64,000 nucleotides of DNA from Variovorax sp. SG517 (GTDB taxonomy: Bacteria > Pseudomonadota > Gammaproteobacteria > Burkholderiales > Burkholderiaceae_C), in contig NZ_JABMJG010000009.1 of the NCBI RefSeq assembly GCF_013376045.1, positions 62,001 through 126,000 on the forward strand, written 5' to 3'. Below the pieces are notes generated by a model. It did no database searches. It had not been told where the DNA came from and saw only the letters and a program-made list of their open reading frames with translations. This document shows positions 2,350-11,686 of the stretch, piece by piece (the first letter of the stretch is position 1; each line of letters opens with the position of its first letter). The position numbers were made by a program, and so were the translations under genes.

Positions 2350-4071
2350 ATGAGCTTTGAAGTGGACATCGGCTACAGCAGCCGGCGCGGACCGCGCGAG
2401 GTGAACGAGGACTTCGCCGGCGCGGTGCATGCGCCGCCGGGCGACGAGGCACGCGGGCTCATCGCGGCCATTGCCGACGGCGTGTCCAGCGGAGGCCGGG
2501 GCCGCGAAGCGGCGCAGACCACGGTGATGGGGCTTCTGGCCGACTACTTCGCCACGCCCGCCACCTGGGAGCCGACCGCCGCGCTCGACCGGCTGGTCGC
2601 CGCGCAGAACGGCTGGCTGGCCGACCACAACCGCCGCCGCCAGAGCAGGCGCAGCGAGGAGGGCGGCACGGCCCTCACCACGCTCACCGCACTGGTGCTT
2701 CATGGCCAGAGCTACACGCTGGCCCACGTCGGCGACACCCGCGCCTGGCGCGTGCGCGCCGGCGGCGAAGCGGCCGTGCCGCTCACGCAGGACCATGCCT
2801 TCGACCATCCCGACATGCGCAGCCGCCTGACGCGCGCCATCGGCCTCGACGACCAGGTGCGTGTCGACTACGTGCAGGGCGACGTTCGCGTGGGTGACTG
2901 CTTCGTGCTCACTTCCGACGGCGTGCACGGCGTGCTCAAGCCGCAGCAGGTGGCTGCGCTGGCGCTGCGGGGCGACGACGCCGAGGCTGCCAGCGAGGCG
3001 CTGGTGCATGCCGCGCTCGACGCCGGTACGCGCGACAACGCGACCGCGCTGGTCATCCGCGTGTTGGGTTTGGACGCCCGGCAGCTCGACGACGAACTCG
3101 GCGACGGCCGCAGGCTCGCTCCGCCGCCCGCGCTGAAAGTGGGCGAGGTGCTCGACGGCTACGCGATCACTGCGCTTGTGGCCGACACCGGCGTGCATCT
3201 GCTCTACCAGGCGCGTCATCCGGTCACGCGCGAGCTGGTCGCGCTGAAGACGCTGCATCCCTCGCGCGCCGGCGATCCGCAGGAGCGCGCGATGCTGGCG
3301 CACGAGGCCTGGCTGGGGCTGCGCGTGGGCGGCAGCGGCTTCGTCCGCGTGCATGAACGCGCCGAGAACGCGAGCGCGCTCTACATCGTTTTCGACTGGC
3401 ACGGCGGGCGCACGCTGGAGCAACTGCGCAAGGCCAATCCGCGCGGCGCGGTGGCCGATGTGGTGGCCGCCGGCATCGAACTGAGCCGCGCGCTCGGCCG
3501 GCTGCATCGGCAAGGCGTGATCCACCGCGACATCAAGCCCGGCAACCTGCACCTGGGCGACGACGGCCGCTGGCGCATCCTCGACCTGGGCGTGGCGCTG
3601 TCCGGCAGGGAGGGCGCGGCCCAGCGCGAGCTGCATGCGGGCACGCCCAGCTACATCAATCCCGAGCAGTGGGAGGAGGGCGGCACCGCCAATGCGGGCA
3701 GCGACCTGTTCGCCCTCGGCGTCACGCTCTACCAGTGGCTCACCGGCCATCTGCCCTACGGCGAGATCGAGCCCTACCAGGTGGCGCGCTACCGCCGCGA
3801 CCCGGTCGCGCTTTCGCGGCTGCGGCCCGACCTGCCGATCTGGCTCGACCACCTGGTGCGCAAGGCCGTCGCGCGCGATCCGCGCGAGCGTTTCGAGACC
3901 GCCGAGGAACTGCTGCTCGCGCTCGAACGCGGTGCATCGCGCCCCGTGAACGCACCCGCCGCCACGCCGCTGATCCGCCGCGATCCGCTCGTGCTCTACC
4001 AGCTGGCGCTGGGCGTGTCGGTGCTGTTCAACCTCCTGTTGATCGTGTGGCTGCTTTTTCTGCCGCATTGA
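2350..4071 (+). CDS. Bifunctional PP2C-type phosphatase / Ser-Thr protein kinase with C-terminal membrane anchor
   Basis: 573 aa. The N-terminal PP2C domain (about residues 1-245) keeps its metal-binding residues: VNED, ADGVSSGG, TSDGVHG and RDNATALV. A Hanks-type kinase domain (about 263-535) has VALK, HRDIKPGN near residue 392, DLG in place of DFG, and GTPSYINPEQ. A single hydrophobic helix (about 545-571) ends the protein, so the catalytic parts should be cytoplasmic. Related phosphatase-kinase genes sit between nasA and nirB in other proteobacteria (for example the Pseudomonas stk1 region), which suggests post-translational control of nitrate uptake or reduction; no target is known here. 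Unusually, this copy reads opposite to both neighbours. The start at 2350 begins the conserved PP2C sequence (MSFEVDIGYSSRRG). Confidence 0.93.
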   Translation: MSFEVDIGYSSRRGPREVNEDFAGAVHAPPGDEARGLIAAIADGVSSGGRGREAAQTTVMGLLADYFATPATWEPTAALDRLVAAQNGWLADHNRRRQSRRSEEGGTALTTLTALVLHGQSYTLAHVGDTRAWRVRAGGEAAVPLTQDHAFDHPDMRSRLTRAIGLDDQVRVDYVQGDVRVGDCFVLTSDGVHGVLKPQQVAALALRGDDAEAASEALVHAALDAGTRDNATALVIRVLGLDARQLDDELGDGRRLAPPPALKVGEVLDGYAITALVADTGVHLLYQARHPVTRELVALKTLHPSRAGDPQERAMLAHEAWLGLRVGGSGFVRVHERAENASALYIVFDWHGGRTLEQLRKANPRGAVADVVAAGIELSRALGRLHRQGVIHRDIKPGNLHLGDDGRWRILDLGVALSGREGAAQRELHAGTPSYINPEQWEEGGTANAGSDLFALGVTLYQWLTGHLPYGEIEPYQVARYRRDPVALSRLRPDLPIWLDHLVRKAVARDPRERFETAEELLLALERGASRPVNAPAATPLIRRDPLVLYQLALGVSVLFNLLLIVWLLFLPH

Positions 4072-4184: not shown

Positions 4185-5441
4185 TCATGCGGAGCGCCTC
4201 GCCGGTTGCGAAGCCGGCGCATGGGCCGGCACGACGCGCGCGCGGCCACCCTTCTCGGCCCAGGTGCGGGTCCAGCGGATCTGCATCACGCGCATCACGC
4301 CCAGCATCACGAGTGAGAGCGCCGCGAAGAAGATGAAGCCCCAGAGGTAGCTGCCCAGGTACTGCTTCGACAGGCCCATGGCGTTGGGCACCAGGCCGCC
4401 GCCCAGCGCGCCGATCTCGCCGATCATCGAGCCGGCCACCGCCGTGCTCGCGGGCCAGCGCAGCGGCACCAGCTGGAAGAGGGCGCCGTTGCCCGCGCCC
4501 AGCGCGGCGAAGCAGACGATCAGCACCAGCGTGGTGACGGTCAGCGAACCGGAAGAGACGCCCACCAGCACAAGGCCCACGGCCACCACCAGCAGCACCA
4601 CGGTAAGCGTGTTCACGCCGCCCCAGCGGTCGGAGATCCAGCCGCCCACGACGCGCACCGCCGCGCCCATGAAGGCCGCGAGCATGGTCAGCTGGCCGGC
4701 CTGCACCTTGCTCACGCCGAACTGGTCGTAGTAATACGAGGGCAGGAAGGTCGTGAGGCCGATGAAGCCACCGAAGGTCACGCCGTAGATCAGGCTGAAC
4801 ACCCAGCCGTCTTTTTCGAACAGGCAGGCGATGTGCTCGCGGAAGCTCGAATGCGCGTTCACGTCCGGCGGCTCCTTGGCGAAGAGCACCATCACGACCA
4901 TCGGGATCAGGATGGCGACGGCGGCCACGCCGTACACCGCCTGCCAGCCCAGCCAGTTGGCCAGCGGCGGCGCCACCAGCACCGACACGGCCGTGCCCAC
5001 GTTGCCCGCGCCCACCAGCCCCATGGCCAGGCCCTTGTGCTGCGGCGGGAACCAGCCCGAGCCCAGCGACAGCGCCACGCCGAAGCTGGCGCCCGCGATG
5101 CCCAGCAGCACGCCCATGGCGAGCAGGTCGTTGAAGCTCTTGACGAAGAAGAACCCGAAGAGCATCGCCACCGCGATCAGCGCCATCTCGACCAGCGTGG
5201 CCTTCTTGCGGCCGATGTACTGCGAGAGGATGCCCAGCGGAAAACGCATGAGCGCGCCCGCGATGATCGGCACCGACAGCATCAGGCCCTTCTGCGCCGG
5301 CGAGAGGCTGAAGGTCTCGCCGATGAAGGGCGCCATGGCGCCGTTGAGCACCCAGATGCAGCAGGAGAACGAGAAGTACAGGAAGGCCGCGAACAGTGTC
5401 GGACTGTGGCCTGACTGCAAGAAATTCCTGAAACCTGACAT
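4185..5441 (-). CDS. nasA: NarK/NasA-family nitrate/nitrite MFS transporter
   Basis: 418 aa inner-membrane permease of the major facilitator superfamily with about 12 hydrophobic segments. The two glycine-rich nitrate-signature regions are visible (GLVGAGNVGTAVS and ALGAGNGALFQ). The expected role is import of nitrate for assimilation, consistent with nirB and the nrt genes nearby. The ATG at 5441 is used; an in-frame TTG at 5450 is possible, and neither has a clear Shine-Dalgarno. The leader (5442-5649) carries a -24/-12 promoter, a hexaloop hairpin and a terminator-like hairpin, so expression is predicted to need NtrC and an ANTAR antiterminator. Confidence 0.92.
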   Translation of the reverse strand: MSGFRNFLQSGHSPTLFAAFLYFSFSCCIWVLNGAMAPFIGETFSLSPAQKGLMLSVPIIAGALMRFPLGILSQYIGRKKATLVEMALIAVAMLFGFFFVKSFNDLLAMGVLLGIAGASFGVALSLGSGWFPPQHKGLAMGLVGAGNVGTAVSVLVAPPLANWLGWQAVYGVAAVAILIPMVVMVLFAKEPPDVNAHSSFREHIACLFEKDGWVFSLIYGVTFGGFIGLTTFLPSYYYDQFGVSKVQAGQLTMLAAFMGAAVRVVGGWISDRWGGVNTLTVVLLVVAVGLVLVGVSSGSLTVTTLVLIVCFAALGAGNGALFQLVPLRWPASTAVAGSMIGEIGALGGGLVPNAMGLSKQYLGSYLWGFIFFAALSLVMLGVMRVMQIRWTRTWAEKGGRARVVPAHAPASQPARRSA

Positions 5442-5456
5442 GGCGTTCAAAGATGC

Positions 5457-5710: not shown

Positions 5711-6988
5711 ATGTCCCTTCTCGTTGTCCTGCCCGATGAACCTGCCGGCCCGGTGCTGCCGCAGCCGCTGGCGAAGGCCTTGTCCGGCGCTGGGATCGAC
5801 GTGCTCGGCGTTGCCGATTGCGTTGGTTTCGCACGGCAGTTCGAGGCGCTCGCTCCTCGGCAGGTGCTGATCTTCCTGCCCGTGCCCACGCCCGCGCTGC
5901 TCGATGCCCTGCGCGGCTGGGCCGGTGTGCCGCCGTGCGCTGTGGGCCTCGCCAGCGGGTCGCTGAACGCCGCGCAGCACGAGGAACTGGTCGCGCTCGG
6001 CGTGCACGCCTGGCTGCATGCCGATGCCATCGAGGCCGGATCGCTTGCCGCATTGATGGCGCGCGCCTCGTCCCGCTGGCAGCGCGAGGCCGCGCTGCGC
6101 ACCGAACTGGAGAACCTGCGCACCCGCATGGACGAGCGCAAGTGGGTCGATCGTGCCAAGGGCCTGCTGATGTCCGCGCGCGGCATCGGCGAGGACGAGG
6201 CCTTCGGCCTGCTGCGAGGCGCCGCGATGCACGCGAACCTGCGGCTCGGCGAGGTGTCGCGTTCGGTCATCGAGGCCGCGCAGTGGGCGGAGGCGATCAA
6301 CCGCGCCGGGCAGCTGCGCATGCTCTCGCAGCGGCTGGTGCGCGTGGCGGCGCAGCTGCTGGGCGGCATCGACGCGCAGCGGGCCAGGCTGCTGCGCACG
6401 CAGTCTTCCGAGCGGGTGCAGCAGAACCTGGATCACTTGGCGGCCCTCGGACTCGGCGCGGGCGGCGTCGAGGCGCTCGCGCAGGCGCAGTCCGCGTGGA
6501 GCGGGCTGGCCGAAGCCCTGACTGCAAAGCCGACGGCGGCGGGACTGGCCGACATCGACCGGCGCGCCGAAGTGCTGCTGAACGCCGCCGAGGCGCTCAC
6601 CGAGGCGCTCGAAACCTCGGGCGCGCGGCGCGCGCTGCGCATCGTCAACATCTGCGGGCGGCAGCGCATGCGCGCGCAGCGGCTCGCCAAGGACGCGCTG
6701 CTGGCCGCAGCGCTGAAGGAAGAAGCGACCAAGGCACGGCTGGTGCCGACCATGGCCGAGTTCGAAGCCGCGCTGCTCGAACTGGAGCGTGCGCCGCTGA
6801 GCACTGCCGAGATCCGTGCCGCGCTGGCGAGCGCGCGCGACGAATGGCTGCGGCTGGTGGGCGGCGTGCAGGCGCTCGACAGCGCCGACGGCCGCGCCAC
6901 GCTGGTGCGTTCCAGCGAGGCGCTGGTCGACACTTTCGAACGCCTCACGGCGTCGTACGAGCACAGCCTGCAAGTGATCATGTCCTGA
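5711..6988 (+). CDS. ANTAR-domain regulator with pseudo-receiver and two P-box (PilJ-like) motifs
   Basis: 425 aa, soluble, with no membrane segment. Residues 1-115 resemble a receiver fold without an obvious phosphoacceptor Asp. Residues about 134-195 are an ANTAR RNA-binding domain (DERKWVDRAKGLLMSARG). Two motifs resembling the nitrate-binding P-box of NarX/NarQ follow: NRAGQLRMLSQRL from residue 197 and NICGRQRMRAQRL from residue 313, each keeping the key Arg. It is therefore probably a nitrate-responsive antiterminator (inference). It converges on nrtD with 29 bases between and is divergent from nasA. The ATG at 5711 starts the folded domain; a longer open frame upstream lies in the nasA regulatory region and is rejected. 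Confidence 0.85.
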   Translation: MSLLVVLPDEPAGPVLPQPLAKALSGAGIDVLGVADCVGFARQFEALAPRQVLIFLPVPTPALLDALRGWAGVPPCAVGLASGSLNAAQHEELVALGVHAWLHADAIEAGSLAALMARASSRWQREAALRTELENLRTRMDERKWVDRAKGLLMSARGIGEDEAFGLLRGAAMHANLRLGEVSRSVIEAAQWAEAINRAGQLRMLSQRLVRVAAQLLGGIDAQRARLLRTQSSERVQQNLDHLAALGLGAGGVEALAQAQSAWSGLAEALTAKPTAAGLADIDRRAEVLLNAAEALTEALETSGARRALRIVNICGRQRMRAQRLAKDALLAAALKEEATKARLVPTMAEFEAALLELERAPLSTAEIRAALASARDEWLRLVGGVQALDSADGRATLVRSSEALVDTFERLTASYEHSLQVIMS

Positions 6989-7017: not shown

Positions 7018-7827
7018 TCAGGCCGCGACCTTCTCCACGTGCGCCTGGCGCGTGTAGAGGAAGTCGATCACCGCCTTGCGCGCATGCACGTAGGCCGGGT
7101 CTTCGGCCAGTTCGACGCGGTTGCGCGGGCGCGGGATGTCCACCGACAGCACCTCGCCGATGGTCGCTGCCGGGCCGTTGGTGAGCATCACGATGCGGTC
7201 GCTCAGCAGCACGGCCTCGTCCACGTCGTGCGTGACCATGACGACCGTGCTGTGCGTCTTCTGCACGATCGCGAGCAGCTCGTCCTGCAGCTTGGCGCGG
7301 GTGAGGGCGTCGAGCGCGCCGAAGGGCTCGTCCATCAGCAGCACCTTGGGCTCCATCGACAGCGCGCGTGCGATGCCCACGCGCTGCTTCATGCCGCCGG
7401 AGATCTCGCCGGGGCGCTTCTGCGCGGCGTGCGAGAGGCCGACCAGCGCCAGCGCCGCGTCGGTGCGGGCGCGAAGCTGCGCCTTGCTCTCGGTGGCCGC
7501 GAACACCCGCTCCACCGCGAGGTACACGTTCTCGAAGCAGGTGAGCCAGGGCAGCAGCGAGTGGTTCTGGAACACCACCGCGCGCTCGGGGCCGGGGCCC
7601 TTGATCTCCTTGTTGGCGCACAGCAGCGAACCCTGCGTGGGCGTGGTGAGCCCGGCGATCAGGTTCAGCAGCGTCGACTTGCCGCAGCCCGAGTGGCCGA
7701 TGAGCGTGATGAACTCCCCCTTGGCCACGTTCAGGTTCACGTCGCGCAGCGCGACGAAGCGGCCCTTGGGCGTCTTGAACGCCTGCTCGACGCCGTGGAT
7801 CTCGATGTACTTGGTGTCGTCGATCAT
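7018..7827 (-). CDS. nrtD: Nitrate ABC transporter ATP-binding protein
   Basis: 269 aa cytoplasmic ATPase of the NrtD/SsuB/TauB family. Walker A is GHSGCGKST, the signature is ISGGMKQR, Walker B is VLLMDEP and the H-loop is MVTHD. It lacks the NrtA-like C-terminal domain of NrtC, so it is the short form. A strong GGAGG lies 6 bases before the ATG at 7827. It is the last gene of nrtA-nrtB-nrtD, 55 bases after nrtB, and energises nitrate import. Confidence 0.93.
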   Translation of the reverse strand: MIDDTKYIEIHGVEQAFKTPKGRFVALRDVNLNVAKGEFITLIGHSGCGKSTLLNLIAGLTTPTQGSLLCANKEIKGPGPERAVVFQNHSLLPWLTCFENVYLAVERVFAATESKAQLRARTDAALALVGLSHAAQKRPGEISGGMKQRVGIARALSMEPKVLLMDEPFGALDALTRAKLQDELLAIVQKTHSTVVMVTHDVDEAVLLSDRIVMLTNGPAATIGEVLSVDIPRPRNRVELAEDPAYVHARKAVIDFLYTRQAHVEKVAA

Positions 7828-7882: not shown

Positions 7883-8812
7883 TCATGACTTCACCTCTTC
7901 GAACGTGAACGCGGTTGCGAGCTTGATGAGCGCGAACTCCAGCACCAGGCCGACGATGCCGATCACGAAGATCGCGATGATGATGTTGGCTACGTTGAGG
8001 TTGTTCCACTCGTCCCACACCCAGAAGCCGATGCCGACGCCACCGGTAAGCATTTCGGCGGCCACGATCACCAGCCAGGCGGTGCCTACGGCCAGCCGCA
8101 CGCCGGTCAGCATGTAGGGCAGCACGGCGGGAAAGAGGATCTTGGTGAGGATCTTCCACTCGCTCAGGTTCAGCACCTTGGCCACGTTCATGTAGTCGGC
8201 GGGCACGCGCTGCACGCCCACGGCGGTGTTGATGATCATCGGCCAGATCGAGCAGATGAAGATGGTCCAGATGGCCGCCGGGTTGGCGCCCTTGAACACC
8301 AGCAGGCCGATGGGCAGCCAGGCGAGCGGCGACACGGGGCGCAGCAGACTGATCAGCGGGTTGAACATGCGCGAGAGGAACTCGAAGCGCCCGATGGCGA
8401 AGCCGGCCGGAATGCCGACCAGCGCGGCGAGGCCGAAGCCCAATGCCACGCGCTGCAGCGAGGAGAGCACGTTCCAGCCCACGCCCTGGTCGTTGGGGCC
8501 CTTGCTGTAGAACGGGTCGCTGAACACCGTCACCGCCTGCTGCCAGGTGGCAGCGGGCGTGGGGAAGCCGGTGGTGCTCTTCATGGCCACCACCTCCCAG
8601 ATCAGCAGCAGCAGTCCGAAGCCCGCCAGCGGCGGAAGCACGCGCATCCAGAAGGCGCGCAGGTCGAGCGGCGCGCGGGTGCGCGGCTCGGGTGCGGGGG
8701 CCGGCACCGGCTGCGGAGCCGCCACCTTGGAGGCGGCCGGCTTGGGCGGGGCGGAGGGCGCCGACTGGGCGGCGGCCACATCGAGCGGCGAGTGGAAGAC
8801 TGCGCTGACCAT
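7883..8812 (-). CDS. nrtB: Nitrate ABC transporter permease
   Basis: 309 aa inner-membrane permease of the NrtB/SsuC type. An Ala/Pro-rich cytoplasmic N-terminus of about 60 residues precedes about six hydrophobic helices. The EAA-like loop that contacts the ATPase lies near LNLSEWKILTKILFPAVLPY. The start at 8812 is preferred because GGGAG sits 6 bases upstream. A start at 8830 would overlap the nrtA stop and lacks such a site. It follows nrtA by 10 bases. Confidence 0.93.
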   Translation of the reverse strand: MVSAVFHSPLDVAAAQSAPSAPPKPAASKVAAPQPVPAPAPEPRTRAPLDLRAFWMRVLPPLAGFGLLLLIWEVVAMKSTTGFPTPAATWQQAVTVFSDPFYSKGPNDQGVGWNVLSSLQRVALGFGLAALVGIPAGFAIGRFEFLSRMFNPLISLLRPVSPLAWLPIGLLVFKGANPAAIWTIFICSIWPMIINTAVGVQRVPADYMNVAKVLNLSEWKILTKILFPAVLPYMLTGVRLAVGTAWLVIVAAEMLTGGVGIGFWVWDEWNNLNVANIIIAIFVIGIVGLVLEFALIKLATAFTFEEVKS

Positions 8813-8822
8813 GGTGTTCTCC

Positions 8823-10067
8823 CTATGCATGGAGCTTGAAGGAATCGGCGTACTTCTTCGGGTCCTTGCCGTCCCAGACGGAGCCGTCGAAGAGCTTGCT
8901 GGTGCGCATCGTTTCCTTGGGCACCGGCGTCTGCGTGGCGGCGGCGGCCTGCTTGTAGATGTCGATGCGGTTGATCTCGGTGGCCACCTTCAGGTAGTCG
9001 GGGTGCTCCTTCAGCAGGCCCCAGCGCTTGTGCTGCGTGAGGAACCACATGCCGTCCGACAGGTACGGGAAGGTCACGGCGCCGCCGTTGTAGAACTTCA
9101 TGTGGTTGGGGTCGTCCCAGCTCTTGCCCAGGCCGTTGGTGTAGCGGCCCAGGATGCGCTGGTTGATGGCGTCCACGCTGGTGTTGACGTAGCTCTTGTC
9201 GGCGATGGTCTCGGCCATCTTGTTCTTGTTCTGCAGGCCGGTGTCGATCCACTTGCCGGCCTCCAGGATGGCGGCCGTCACGGCGCGCGCGGTGTTGGGG
9301 TACTTCTTCGCGAACTCGGCGGTGGTGCCCAGCACCTTCTCGGGGTGGTCCTTCCAGATGTCCTGCGTGGTGATGGCGGTGATGCCGATGCCGTCCATGA
9401 TCGCGCGCTGGCCCCAGGGCTCGCCCACGCAGTAGCCGTCCATGTTGCCCACGCGCATGTTGGCGACCATCTGCGGAGGCGGCACGGTGATGTTCTTCAC
9501 GTCCTTGAACGGGTCGATGCCGGCCGATGCGAGCCAGTAGTACAGCCACATGGCGTGCGTGCCGGTGGGGAAGGTCTGCGCGAAGGTGTATTCGCGCTTC
9601 TCGCTCGCGATGAGCTTGGCGAGCGATGCGGCGTCCACCGCGCCCTTGTCGGCCAGCTTCTTCGACAGCGTGATGGCCTGGCCGTTGTTGTTGAGCGTCA
9701 TGAGCACGGCCATGTCCTTCTTCGGGCCGCTCAGGCCCAGGTGCATGCCGTAGACCAGGCCGTAAAGCACGTGGGCGAAGTCGAGCTCGCCGTTGGCCAG
9801 CTTGTCGCGCACGCCGGCCCAGCTGGCTTCCTTGCTGGGCACGATCTTCACGCCGTACTTCTTGTCGATGCCCAGCACCGAGGCCATCACCACGCTGGCG
9901 CAGTCGGTCAGCGGGATGAAGCCGATCTTCACTTCTTCCTTCTCGGGCTTGTCGGAGCCCTGGGCCCAGACGGCCGCGCGCAGCGCAGGGTCGATGCCCA
10001 CGGCGCCGATGGCGGCGGCTTGCAGGACGCGGCGTCGGCTGAGACGGGTTTTGAGCAGGTCGGTCAT
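8823..10067 (-). CDS. nrtA: Nitrate-binding periplasmic protein (NrtA/CmpA family)
   Basis: 414 aa. The N-terminus has a Tat-type signal (LSRRRVLQAAAIGAVG) ending near AVWAQ. The mature part is the NrtA/NasF fold: KIGFIPLTDCASVV at the ligand pocket, a GYCVGEPWG segment, and MKFYNGGAVTFPYLSDGMWF near the C-terminus. It should bind nitrate in the periplasm and deliver it to NrtB. The start at 10067 has GGAG 9 bases upstream. The first gene of the operon, it is preceded by a leader with sigma-54 promoter, hexaloop hairpin and terminator. Confidence 0.94.
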   Translation of the reverse strand: MTDLLKTRLSRRRVLQAAAIGAVGIDPALRAAVWAQGSDKPEKEEVKIGFIPLTDCASVVMASVLGIDKKYGVKIVPSKEASWAGVRDKLANGELDFAHVLYGLVYGMHLGLSGPKKDMAVLMTLNNNGQAITLSKKLADKGAVDAASLAKLIASEKREYTFAQTFPTGTHAMWLYYWLASAGIDPFKDVKNITVPPPQMVANMRVGNMDGYCVGEPWGQRAIMDGIGITAITTQDIWKDHPEKVLGTTAEFAKKYPNTARAVTAAILEAGKWIDTGLQNKNKMAETIADKSYVNTSVDAINQRILGRYTNGLGKSWDDPNHMKFYNGGAVTFPYLSDGMWFLTQHKRWGLLKEHPDYLKVATEINRIDIYKQAAAATQTPVPKETMRTSKLFDGSVWDGKDPKKYADSFKLHA

Positions 10068-10115
10068 GTGGCGGGGCTCCGGTTGAAGACGAACAAACAA
10101 GAAAGACAAAAACGA

Positions 10116-10178
10116 AAAGGCGTCCGCACCGCGCAGGGGCTGCTCGAAAACGAGCCCTTGCGGGATGGGGACGCCTTT
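10116..10178 (-). terminator. Leader terminator upstream of nrtA
   Basis: Minus strand: perfect outer stem AAAGGCGTCC / GGACGCCTTT, with an inner GGGCTCG/CGAGCAGCCCC hairpin. The T-rich tract TTTTCGTTTTTGTC follows. It lies between promoter and nrtA and so would stop transcription unless antiterminated, as described for the Klebsiella nasF leader. Confidence 0.8.
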
Positions 10179-10193
10179 GTCCGGTCGGTAGGA

Positions 10194-10213
10194 AGCACCC
10201 GCCGTTGGATGCC
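10194..10213 (-). promoter_or_regulatory. ANTAR-type hexaloop hairpin in nrtA leader
   Basis: Minus strand: stem GGCATCC / GGGTGCT (two G-U pairs) closing the hexaloop AACGGC, with A1 and G4 as in ANTAR-protein targets. It lies 16 bases upstream of the terminator. The nasA leader has an almost identical loop (AACGAA). Confidence 0.7.
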
Positions 10214-10223
10214 GCCTGCCTGA

Positions 10224-10240
10224 AGGTCCATCGAGGACCT
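10224..10240 (-). promoter_or_regulatory. First leader hairpin of nrtA transcript
   Basis: Minus strand: 6-bp perfect stem AGGTCC / GGACCT with loop TCGAT, about 5 bases after the predicted start. It sits where hairpin P1 of a two-hairpin ANTAR target should be, but its loop is five bases and lacks the A1/G4 pattern. Confidence 0.55.
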
Positions 10241-10254
10241 ATGAACTTATTGCT

Positions 10255-10270
10255 TGCAAGCGGTGTGCCA
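10255..10270 (-). promoter_or_regulatory. Sigma-54 promoter of nrtA operon
   Basis: Minus strand TGGCACACCGCTTGCA is an exact match to TGGCAC-N5-TTGCA (-24/-12). The predicted start is near 10245. About 145 bases upstream, at 10389-10397, is TGCACCAAA, one half of an NtrC-type site; the other half is not clear. The rest of the gap to nasR (10271-10420) shows nothing else recognisable. Confidence 0.88.
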
Positions 10271-10420
10271 GCTTCGAGATTTGCCGGCTGCTATCAAGAA
10301 AGTAGCTGGATGTCGCACGAAGCCGCAGCGCGCAGCGGGGGAGGGGCAGGCCGGGCGGCAAAGGGTGGGTGGCACGGTTGTTGTGCGGTGCACCAAATTC
10401 GAACGCCCGGGCCGCTCGCT

Positions 10421-11686
10421 TCAGCGCGGCGGTGCGCGGTCGAGCATGGGCAGGTAGTCGGCCATCGCGAGCATCGACTCGGCCACGTCGACCAGCCTGC
10501 GCTTCTGGTTCATGGCGGTCTGGCGCAGCATCTTGTGGGCGTCTTCCTCGCTGAGGCGGCGGTGCGCCATCAGCAGGCCCTTGGCGCGCTCGACGATCTT
10601 GCGTTCGTTGAGCGAGGCGCGCACGGTCTCGAGTTCATCGCTCATGGCCTGCAGCCGGCGCGACTGCTCCTGGACCATGTCGAGCACCGAGCGCTCCAGG
10701 TGGCGGCCCAGCTGGGCCGGTGCTGCCGCCTGGGCATCGGCGTCGTCGAAGAAGAGCGCGCCGGCCTGCGGCGCCAGAGAGTCGAGCAGCTGGCGGTATT
10801 CGCGAAGCTCGCTGCGGGCCTGCGCGGTCTTGTGCTCGCACAGCGCGCGCAGGTCGCCGGCCAGACGCTCCTCTACGGTCTTCATGGCGTCGATGCGGCG
10901 GGTGCAGCAGTCGAACCAGGCCTGGCTCAACGGCACGTCGGCCGGCCCGGACGCCGCGCCGCGCCGGCGGATGCGTTCGAGATCGGCCACTTCGGCGTCG
11001 GGCTGGATGTCGTGCCAGAGCGCGAGCACCTCTTCGCCCGAGAAGTCGGTGAAGACCTGGAAGCAGCGCTCCTGCGATTCGATCAGGTGAAGCCACTGCA
11101 GGCGCTGCGCCTCGTCGCTGCGGCCCAGCGCGAGCGCGGCGGAGCCGAATGCGCGCTCCTGGCCGGCGAATTCCTTGCCCTGCATGAAGTTGAACATCGC
11201 GACCAGCAGGCGAGAGATCTCGGGGTCGGTGGCGCCGTCGGCGGCCTCGAACACCACCGAGAGCAGGCCCGCGACCAGCTTGGCGAAAGCGGCGGTGGAT
11301 TGCGCCGGCTTGAGCTCGAGCGCGTCGATGCGGCGGCGCAGGGCGGGCAGGGCGTCCAGGCCCGGCAGCACCCAGGCGATGCGGCTGAACAGGCGCGCGT
11401 TGTTGCCGGCGTCGGAGCCGCGGTGGTAGTTGTCGGCCTCGAGCTGGTCGAAACAGGTGCGGACCTCCTGCTCGAGCGCGACGCATTCGGCGATCTGCGG
11501 GCCGCGCTGCTCGGCGAAGCGGCCGCCGCGCGAGGTGAGGAACATGTTCGACATGCCCCGCTCGCGCTGCAGCGCGTGCACCAGCCGGCCGATCAGGCCC
11601 ACCAGCTCGCTGGTGCGGGCGAGCCGGTCCAGTTCGTCGATTTCGCAGCGGCGGGCGGCGATGAGGAAGCTCAATCCGGATTTCAT
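10421..11686 (-). CDS. nasR: NasR-like nitrate-sensing antiterminator (NIT domain + ANTAR)
   Basis: 421 aa. The N-terminal helical NIT domain has the two nitrate-sensing segments expected of Nas[13 protein letters not shown] near residue 38 and [15 protein letters not shown] near the middle. The C-terminal ANTAR domain ([20 protein letters not shown]) binds paired hairpins in nascent RNA. In Klebsiella, NasR binds nitrate and antiterminates the nas operon leader. Here the gene sits directly upstream of the nrtA leader in the same orientation, as in Klebsiella. The start at 11686 ([13 protein letters not shown]) is the first sensible Met; no strong Shine-Dalgarno is seen, so the N-terminus is uncertain. 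Confidence 0.88.

Follow-up and report, generated by a model that had tools for sequence, protein, structure and literature searches.

A probable nitrate-responsive ANTAR attenuator with an additional 5' hairpin in front of nrtABD in Variovorax sp. SG517

In the stretch of 64,000 nucleotides analysed here (the window), the gap between a NIT-ANTAR regulator gene and an nrtA-like gene holds a 155-nt unit on the minus strand, composed of a promoter, a first hairpin (P0), a second hairpin (P1) and a third hairpin overlapping a terminator (P2/terminator). We consider it very likely that this leader is a nitrate-responsive attenuator, in which the NIT-ANTAR protein would act on P1 and P2 and thereby set termination against read-through into nrtABD, with P0 as an extra element. 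The elements themselves, their conservation and covariation, the mutual exclusion (on paper) of P2 and the terminator, and the linkage of the leader to ANTAR genes are all read directly from the genomes described below. The features of the window to which we refer are the following.

10421..11686, minus strand: NIT-ANTAR (NasR-like) regulator gene; the ORF is open to 11896, and 11686 is the likely start, by eye
10372..10386, minus strand: NtrC-type enhancer-like site GCAC-N7-GTGC, GCACAACAACCGTGC, 5' of the promoter
10256..10270, minus strand: putative sigma-54 promoter (-24/-12), TGGCACACCGCTTGC, TGGCAC-N5-TTGC, by sequence match
10224..10240, minus strand: P0 hairpin, AGGTCC-[TCGAT]-GGACCT, beginning 15 nt past TTGC
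10195..10212, minus strand: P1, the first ANTAR hairpin, GCATCC-[AACGGC]-GGGTGC, loop at 10206-10201
10187..10220, minus strand: extended P1 stem, in which part of the P0-P1 linker is paired with part of the P1-P2 linker (MFE fold)
10169..10182, minus strand: P2, the second ANTAR hairpin, GGAC-[AAAGGC]-GTCC, GGACAAAGGCGTCC, loop at 10178-10173
10106..10178, minus strand: intrinsic terminator, with outer stem, branched interior and T-rich tail TTTTCGTTTTT (MFE fold)
8823..10067, minus strand: nrtA-like substrate-binding protein gene (Pfam NMT1_2, 9e-103); likely ATG at 10067, preceded by CCGGAG
7883..8830, minus strand: nrtB permease gene (NCBIfam TIGR01183, above cut-off)
7018..7827, minus strand: nrtD ATPase gene (NCBIfam TIGR01184, above cut-off)
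5711..6988, plus strand: gene for a second ANTAR protein, with a receiver-like N-terminus, ANTAR (3.6e-18) and PilJ in two stretches (2.1e-16)

The order of the cluster is NIT-ANTAR, nrtA, nrtB, nrtD, the convergent gene for the second ANTAR protein (ANTAR-PilJ), a NarK-like MFS gene, a PP2C/Ser-Thr-kinase gene on the opposite strand, and nirB.

In the putative sigma-54 promoter, the GG and GC dinucleotides at -24 and -12 were found at the fixed spacing. Assuming that the usual sigma-54 rule applies, transcription would start at about 10244, near the beginning of P0; no sigma-70 promoter was found within 10050-10450. The GCAC-N7-GTGC element, which we take from its consensus to be a putative NtrC site, accompanies 42 of 58 leaders at a distance of no more than 190 nt 5' of the promoter, as compared with 0.015 occurrences per 190 nt across the same loci. 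Between this site and the promoter of the window (10305-10285, minus strand) there is also an imperfect palindrome, GCTACTTTCTTGATAGC, and in several relatives GCTA...TAGC stretches resembling it occupy roughly this position.

P1 (loop AACGGC) and P2 (loop AAAGGC) are tandem hexaloop hairpins carrying A1 and G4, the dual-hairpin criterion for ANTAR targets (Ramesh 2012). With a 6-bp P1, the linker between the two is 12 nt, which lies within the 5-12 nt given for eut hairpins of Enterococcus faecalis in the available part of PMC3369931. The ANTAR rule, as worded in the accessible sections of PMC3369931 and PMC7496416, asks for two C-G-closed hexaloops with A1 and G4, the second of which overlaps the terminator. 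Read against this rule, the canonical ANTAR pair is P1 plus P2, and P0 is an additional 5' element.

A preliminary description of the leader had placed the promoter, the P0 pentaloop, the P1 hexaloop with its A1 and G4 and the 10-bp terminator stem exactly where we find them. However, it took the pentaloop hairpin for an ANTAR hairpin with an 'atypical' loop and did not list the hairpin at 10182-10169, which together with the AACGGC hairpin forms the pair that fits the rule. Its comparison with a Klebsiella-like attenuator, in a betaproteobacterium and in front of NrtABD, stands as regards the layout but not as regards the choice of the hairpin pair.

The outer stem of the terminator is formed by AAAGGCGTCC (10178-10169) and GGACGCCTTT (10125-10116), which pair perfectly over 10 bp. 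Since the P2 loop and the 3' half of P2 are exactly the 5' arm of this stem, P2 and the terminator are mutually exclusive. In ANTAR systems, a protein bound at the second, terminator-overlapping hairpin blocks formation of the terminator, according to the parts available of PMC3369931, PMC7496416 and PMC8934654. An RNA ending just 3' of P2 was predicted to fold into P0, P1 and P2 (-32.4 kcal/mol), while the MFE structure of the whole leader (-68.7 kcal/mol) includes the terminator, the best fold with P2 enforced being 13 kcal/mol worse (-55.8 kcal/mol). A simple terminator scan, allowing loops of 3-8 nt, was blank at the leader, whose terminator interior is long and branched. The T tail of the terminator, TTTTCGTTTTT, is interrupted, which counts against the attenuator reading.

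When both strands of the 64 kb were scanned for dual A1/G4 hexaloops, three places came up; of these, the leader is the only one whose second hairpin overlaps a terminator and whose sigma-54 match is complete. Dual hairpins by themselves appeared 1.8 times per shuffle in 40 dinucleotide shuffles of the window; a terminator of at least 9 bp overlapping the second hairpin appeared in none of the 40.

As to the start site, the protein partner, the response to nitrate, the activator and the role of P0, we infer the following scheme. Upon nitrogen shortage, an NtrC-type activator would probably turn on the sigma-54 promoter, yielding leader RNA in which P0, P1 and then P2 would fold in their order of emergence. 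Without nitrate, NIT-ANTAR would be off, and the 3' arm GGACGCCUUU would pair with AAAGGCGUCC, displacing P2 and stopping transcription before nrtA. With nitrate, a NIT-ANTAR dimer would sit on the A1/G4 hexaloops of P1 and P2; with P2 held shut, the terminator could not form and nrtABD would be transcribed. P0, in most of the genus, would keep its stem for structural purposes, with a loop free of ANTAR recognition.

The gene directly upstream had been called NasR-like, and this was borne out. Pfam detected a NIT domain (5.3e-55) fused to a C-terminal ANTAR domain (3.4e-18), the combination typical of NasR; the best PDB match was NasR itself (4akk, 4.1e-44), with an alignment covering residues 77-478 of the ORF and, by count, the ERK arginine facing NasR R340. 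The ANTAR-PilJ protein is built differently: its N-terminus aligns with response-regulator ANTAR structures, it has no strongly hydrophobic segment, and it contains the nitrate-box-like motifs INRAGQLRMLSQ and VNICGRQRMRAQ. The former was present in 40 of the 42 ANTAR-PilJ copies examined, window included, and fits 11 of the 12 positions of the nitrate box (N-box) defined for McpN in the available text of PMC6381276. Judging from these motifs, ANTAR-PilJ is a second candidate nitrate sensor that could act on the same leader.

The genome contains three ANTAR genes, one of them directly upstream of the leader. Across the order, 148 of 300 genomes proved to have an ANTAR gene. A covariance-model search proved insensitive, matching 4 of the 300 (the genome of the window included by construction, with 19 candidates per genome scored), and was consequently replaced by an exact pattern consisting of the promoter end, a P1 loop AANG and P2. 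This pattern occurred in 15 of the 300 genomes, all of them ANTAR-positive, and in 12 of the 15 it lay within 3 kb of an ANTAR gene; a few of these matches may be due to chance, because a reversed control pattern matched 6 of 300. The genome of the window misses the exact pattern, its spacer being one base too long.

For a closer comparison, 58 loci from the same genus (probably Variovorax; L049-L106) were fetched. The NIT domain was detected in 58 of 60 same-genus relatives as well as in the genome of the window. All 58 loci have the NIT-ANTAR gene, and in 57 of them, as in the window, the leader follows at its 3' side, with NIT-ANTAR directly upstream in every leader-bearing case; the exception, L078, is 2,900 bases long and ends there. 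An nrtA gene comes after the leader in 55 of the 58 loci; besides the short L078, the loci where none was found there are L052 and L074.

The alignment of 58 leaders (57 genus loci plus the window) showed complete invariance of GGCA and TTGC in the promoter, of CCAA.G..GG in P1 (leader residues C63, C64, A65, A66, G68, G71 and G72) and of GGACAA.G..GTCC in P2. Thus, each of the two loops has the same A1, A2, G4 and closing C-G pair in 58 of 58 leaders; in L068 the automatic caller misplaced P1, whose loop reads AATGAC by eye, with A1 and G4 either way. Because a close match to the promoter and the greater part of P2 were conditions of retrieval, the conservation of these two elements among the retrieved loci is partly built in; as a counterweight, promoter and P2 were at the expected place in 57 of the 58 loci.

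Covariation supported the predicted helices. Taken together, the extended P1 stem and the terminator scored 0.127, against 0.089 in shuffles (none of 500 as high) and 0.017-0.066 in slid controls. Six of the 12 pairs of the extended P1 helix showed changes on both sides, and two of its pairs are weak, 10217-10190 forming in only 3 of the 58 leaders and 10213-10194 failing in 18. The outer stem of the terminator was paired in 97.8% of cells across the 58 leaders. P2 gives little covariation evidence of its own, as it varies in only two leaders (L072 and L106). In L072, P2 reads GGAC-AACGAA-GTCC and the terminator pairs AAGTCC with GGACTT, a joint change that keeps both structures.

The P0 stem was kept in 58 of 58 leaders. 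It starts 12-15 nt past TTGC, hence at about +1 to +4 if the usual sigma-54 rule holds, and its third pair from the loop is A-U, G-C, U-A or C-G depending on the species, so the stem appears to be under selection. The loop is 4-7 nt long, with UUCG, GCAA, GAAA and CCUG tetraloops and pentaloops among its forms, and an ANTAR contact at P0 is probably dispensable in the genus. An A1/G4 hexaloop was present on P0 in six leaders (L077, L085, L086, L091, L093 and L096); the automatic caller gave seven, from which we excluded L087, whose loop reads TGCAAA by eye. On a tree of NIT-ANTAR proteins (unrooted, made by a quick method and with several long branches; 59 of 85 loci had a long enough NIT-ANTAR match, namely 58 from the genus plus L129), the A1/G4 state of P0 amounted to three changes. 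Given this number and the absence of a root, gain and loss of the P0 loop within the genus are indistinguishable, and the notion of A1/G4 as the older state would draw on other genera only.

To look beyond the genus, we scanned named genomes with the pattern and obtained at least 119 stretches at no fewer than 80 loci. Among the 80 loci listed, 16 had no called promoter, and 8 of those 16 came from other phyla and look like chance matches. Promoter, P1 and P2 were present, among the matches listed, in Pseudomonas, Thiobacillus, Hydrogenophilales, Gallionella and others; in these groups no P0 was called, and promoter and P1 are mostly 30-48 nt apart. In the nrtA leaders of Comamonadaceae (Rhodoferax, Acidovorax, Variovorax and others) this distance is 47-60 nt, and a hairpin, usually GACC...GGTC, occupies the place of P0. 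Both traits recurred in one Curvibacter leader before nirB; two Xylophilus nirB leaders had no hairpin in the P0 place.

C-G-closed A1/G4 hexaloops preceding P2 were then counted at 52 places that passed the promoter filter, drawn from 63 named non-Variovorax loci among the matches listed; P2 was itself part of the search pattern, and only the upstream hairpins could be counted freely. There were two such hexaloops at 15 places (mostly Comamonadaceae), one at 32 and none at 5, which means that leaders with three ANTAR-type hexaloops exist. With 15 of 52 places in this state, P0 of Variovorax plausibly represents a third ANTAR hairpin in relaxed form. In the order sample, where 13 of the 15 loci passed the promoter filter, two hexaloops were found in 3 loci, one in 9 and none in 1, the two-hexaloop cases (L246, L248 and L249) being outside the family and having other hairpin spacings.

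The proteins encoded upstream of these leaders are of more than one kind. For ten named loci outside Variovorax that have a hairpin at the position of P0, Pfam found ANTAR and no NIT in all ten upstream ORFs, which are 208-303 aa long as called (8 of 10 below 265 aa), five of them with a weak receiver match. Three other loci, L142, L163 and L172, were left out of the Pfam set because the ORF caller had taken another ORF; they too showed an ANTAR-only match upstream of the leader. Similar leaders thus follow both short receiver-like ANTAR proteins, which we take to be NasT-like, and NIT-ANTAR proteins (Variovorax, and Xenophilus L129).

In L109 (2516-2671) and L163 (2904-3005), beside the ANTAR genes, we noticed 63-68% matches to residues 1-51 of the NIT-ANTAR query, not to NIT. 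These residues precede the likely NIT-ANTAR start and partly overlap a tsaD-like ORF on the opposite strand (start at about 11781). If tsaD is the neighbour in L109 and L163 as well, a non-NIT ANTAR gene at the same place would amount to an exchange of sensors in situ.

In the covariance-model check that had been suggested for ANTAR RNA, no Rfam family reached its gathering threshold in the window. Below threshold, P11 (RF00625) matched over the whole model, promoter included, at 26.0 bits (gathering 70), and narK RNA (RF03032) at 26.2 bits (gathering 43.2) over model positions 31-70 only, both scores falling short of membership. For each model, the leader was the best among the scored candidates in the 7.4-Mb genome, and at a lax threshold (E up to 10) the two models also matched in 9 and 13 of 14 control genomes, respectively, never over the cut-off. 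At gathering, no Rfam hit was obtained in nine loci from Comamonadaceae, Rhodocyclaceae and Hydrogenophilales; the three Pseudomonas-group loci alone scored, with P11 at 94-135 bits directly before nirB.

P11, which we take to be NalA, the nirBD leader of nitrate assimilation in Pseudomonas, resembles our leader in its promoter, the P1 hexaloop AACG.., P2 (GGAC-AAAGGC-GTCC) and terminator. It differs in that no P0 was called in the Pseudomonas group, in that its target is nirB rather than nrtA, and in the distance from promoter to P1, which is 37-48 nt in 6 of 7 Pseudomonas-group loci (L119 is misread at 68), as opposed to 47-60 nt in the Comamonadaceae nrtA leaders. The regulators of the Pseudomonas nirBD leader are NasS and NasT. 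As for nasF of Klebsiella, we know of no P0 in it. The NasR-nasF system of Klebsiella oxytoca shares with the leader a NIT-ANTAR protein, two C-G-closed A1/G4 hexaloops, the terminator overlap and a role in nitrate assimilation, as described in the available parts of PMC7496416 and PMC3369931; on our side, the operon is nrtABD, there is the extra 5' P0, and a second ANTAR protein, with PilJ, is encoded in the cluster.

In the eut system of Enterococcus faecalis, too, EutV has two A1/G4 hexaloops as target, the second within the terminator, and is proposed to bind them in succession, the dimer engaging the first hexaloop and then cycling to the second (PMC8934654 and PMC3369931, accessible text). 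Control there is two-component and by ethanolamine, and the accessible text of the same two papers describes no third hairpin in eut. Overall, the sequence comparisons indicate that the leader belongs with the ANTAR attenuators already described, P11 and nasF being its nearest counterparts. Since PMC3369931 names, as a class, targets in front of nitrate and nitrite transporters, the leader may already figure in its supplementary tables. Going by titles and abstract openings, none of the open-licence papers that came up describes a third ANTAR hairpin or the Variovorax leader, and a term search of the accessible text of PMC8934654 and PMC8164766 did not return a third hairpin.

The narK RNA model of Rfam consists of a sigma-54-like GGCaCAgcucUUGC, a P1 CCAACGGCGG and a 3' end CGACAAAGACGUCG that can be read as an A1/G4 hexaloop; this second hexaloop, CGAC-AAAGAC-GUCG, is left unpaired by Rfam, which pairs P1 alone. 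By sequence, narK RNA reads as a sigma-54-like promoter plus an ANTAR dual hairpin. We found no paper on narK RNA in the open-licence literature. Matches to its model were also seen in L131 (7900-7970) and L152 (993-1064).

Could the hairpins be paired otherwise, with P0 and the AACGGC hairpin as the two ANTAR hairpins and the terminator as a separate element? P0 is present in all 58 leaders, its mean loop-centre distance from P1 (27.5 nt) is much like that between P1 and P2 (29.3 nt), and six leaders do carry a proper A1/G4 hexaloop on it. However, P0 loops vary freely and those of P1 and P2 do not, for which reason P0 was discarded as one of the two recognition hairpins; moreover, a P0-P1 pair would not touch the terminator, and tetraloops, which a methionine of EutV is suggested to exclude along with other smaller loops (PMC8934654, available text), do occur in P0. 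We therefore regard such a pairing as extremely improbable. That the terminated leader serves mainly as a small RNA with effects elsewhere, in line with the Rfam entry P11 (a Pseudomonas sRNA), strikes us as very improbable: P11 is indeed filed under small RNA genes, and its model covers the leader end to end, though at 26 bits, but the position before nrtA, the overlap of P2 with the terminator and the ANTAR linkage are traits of a cis attenuator, and the three Pseudomonas-group P11 matches themselves lie directly before nirB.

The identity of the protein partner leaves somewhat more room. The same attenuator might be served mainly by ANTAR-PilJ (5711-6988), or by both proteins, rather than by the adjacent NIT-ANTAR: ANTAR-PilJ is encoded 3.4 kb from the leader in the same cluster, its ANTAR score equals that of NIT-ANTAR, its motif INRAGQLRMLSQ fits the N-box at 11 of 12 positions, and in other genera leaders of this type follow genes for ANTAR proteins of other kinds. 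Against this, NIT-ANTAR is directly upstream in all 57 leader-bearing genus loci, whereas ANTAR-PilJ had no match in 17 of the 58 fetched loci, several of which are short or cut; the gene could lie elsewhere in those genomes. Four loci of 17 kb each (L054, L055, L057 and L062) have no ANTAR-PilJ match, yet contain both NIT-ANTAR and the leader. On balance, we consider ANTAR-PilJ an unlikely main partner, and an attenuator governed by NIT-ANTAR through P1 and P2 is the reading that we retain.

The correction regarding the hairpins gripped by the ANTAR protein has a practical side, since a gel shift would have to be designed on P1-P2 and not on P0-P1. In addition, our comparison suggests that the P11 entry of Rfam (an sRNA gene) and narK RNA (a cis element) both contain a sigma-54 promoter and an ANTAR two-hairpin element.

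The leaders with an extra early hexaloop invite a hypothesis based on analogy, namely that this loop is an additional landing site, in keeping with the successive-binding model of EutV. Tentatively, some Burkholderiales nitrate leaders might be ladders of three hexaloops, whose loop at the extreme 5' end would catch the dimer at the moment the RNA emerges and pass it on to P1 and then P2 in steps of about 28 nt. The same tentative picture would have the RNA stay while the sensor is swapped (short receiver-like ANTAR in Rhodoferax and Acidovorax, NIT-ANTAR in Variovorax), and most Variovorax leaders, that of the window included, keep the stem of a first rung without an ANTAR loop. Whatever its merit, related genomes form a natural series, with either three recognition hairpins or two and a relaxed third, that could serve to test the successive-binding model; if the ladder is real, the Variovorax leaders would be a natural mutant series bearing on the purpose of the first rung.

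Some further observations concern other genes. Directly before nirB, two genus loci (L050, 9432-9582, and L100, 5575-5724) have one more leader, which combines P1 with the same P2 and lacks P0; in the genome of the window, no nirB leader was found within 420 nt.

The third ANTAR gene of the genome (L018 1093-1692, on G000:C17) we take to be AmiR-like, with an AmiC-like gene upstream and a urea/amide-type binding protein downstream; a terminator-like hairpin and a T-run lie between.

The NarK-like gene (4185-5450) has on its 5' side, at 5650-5590 of the window (minus strand), a sigma-54-like promoter GGGCACGCCTCTTGCA and, 3' of this promoter, the stretch GGTGTAACGAAGCACCGC. The latter did not vary among the 40 copies aligned, a set from which L074 was left out, and has one exact copy in the genome. 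GGTGTAACGAAGCACCGC can form a U-G-closed hairpin with an AACGAA loop (A1/G4) and overlaps a GCAC-N7-GTG NtrC-like site. No P2 was found there, hence we do not count this site as a further canonical ANTAR leader; GGTGTAACGAAGCACCGC may be a single-hexaloop ANTAR site. Between narK and nirB, on the opposite strand, lies the gene for the PP2C phosphatase-Ser/Thr kinase fusion (2353-4071, plus strand), a homologue of which is located near nirB in Pseudomonas too.
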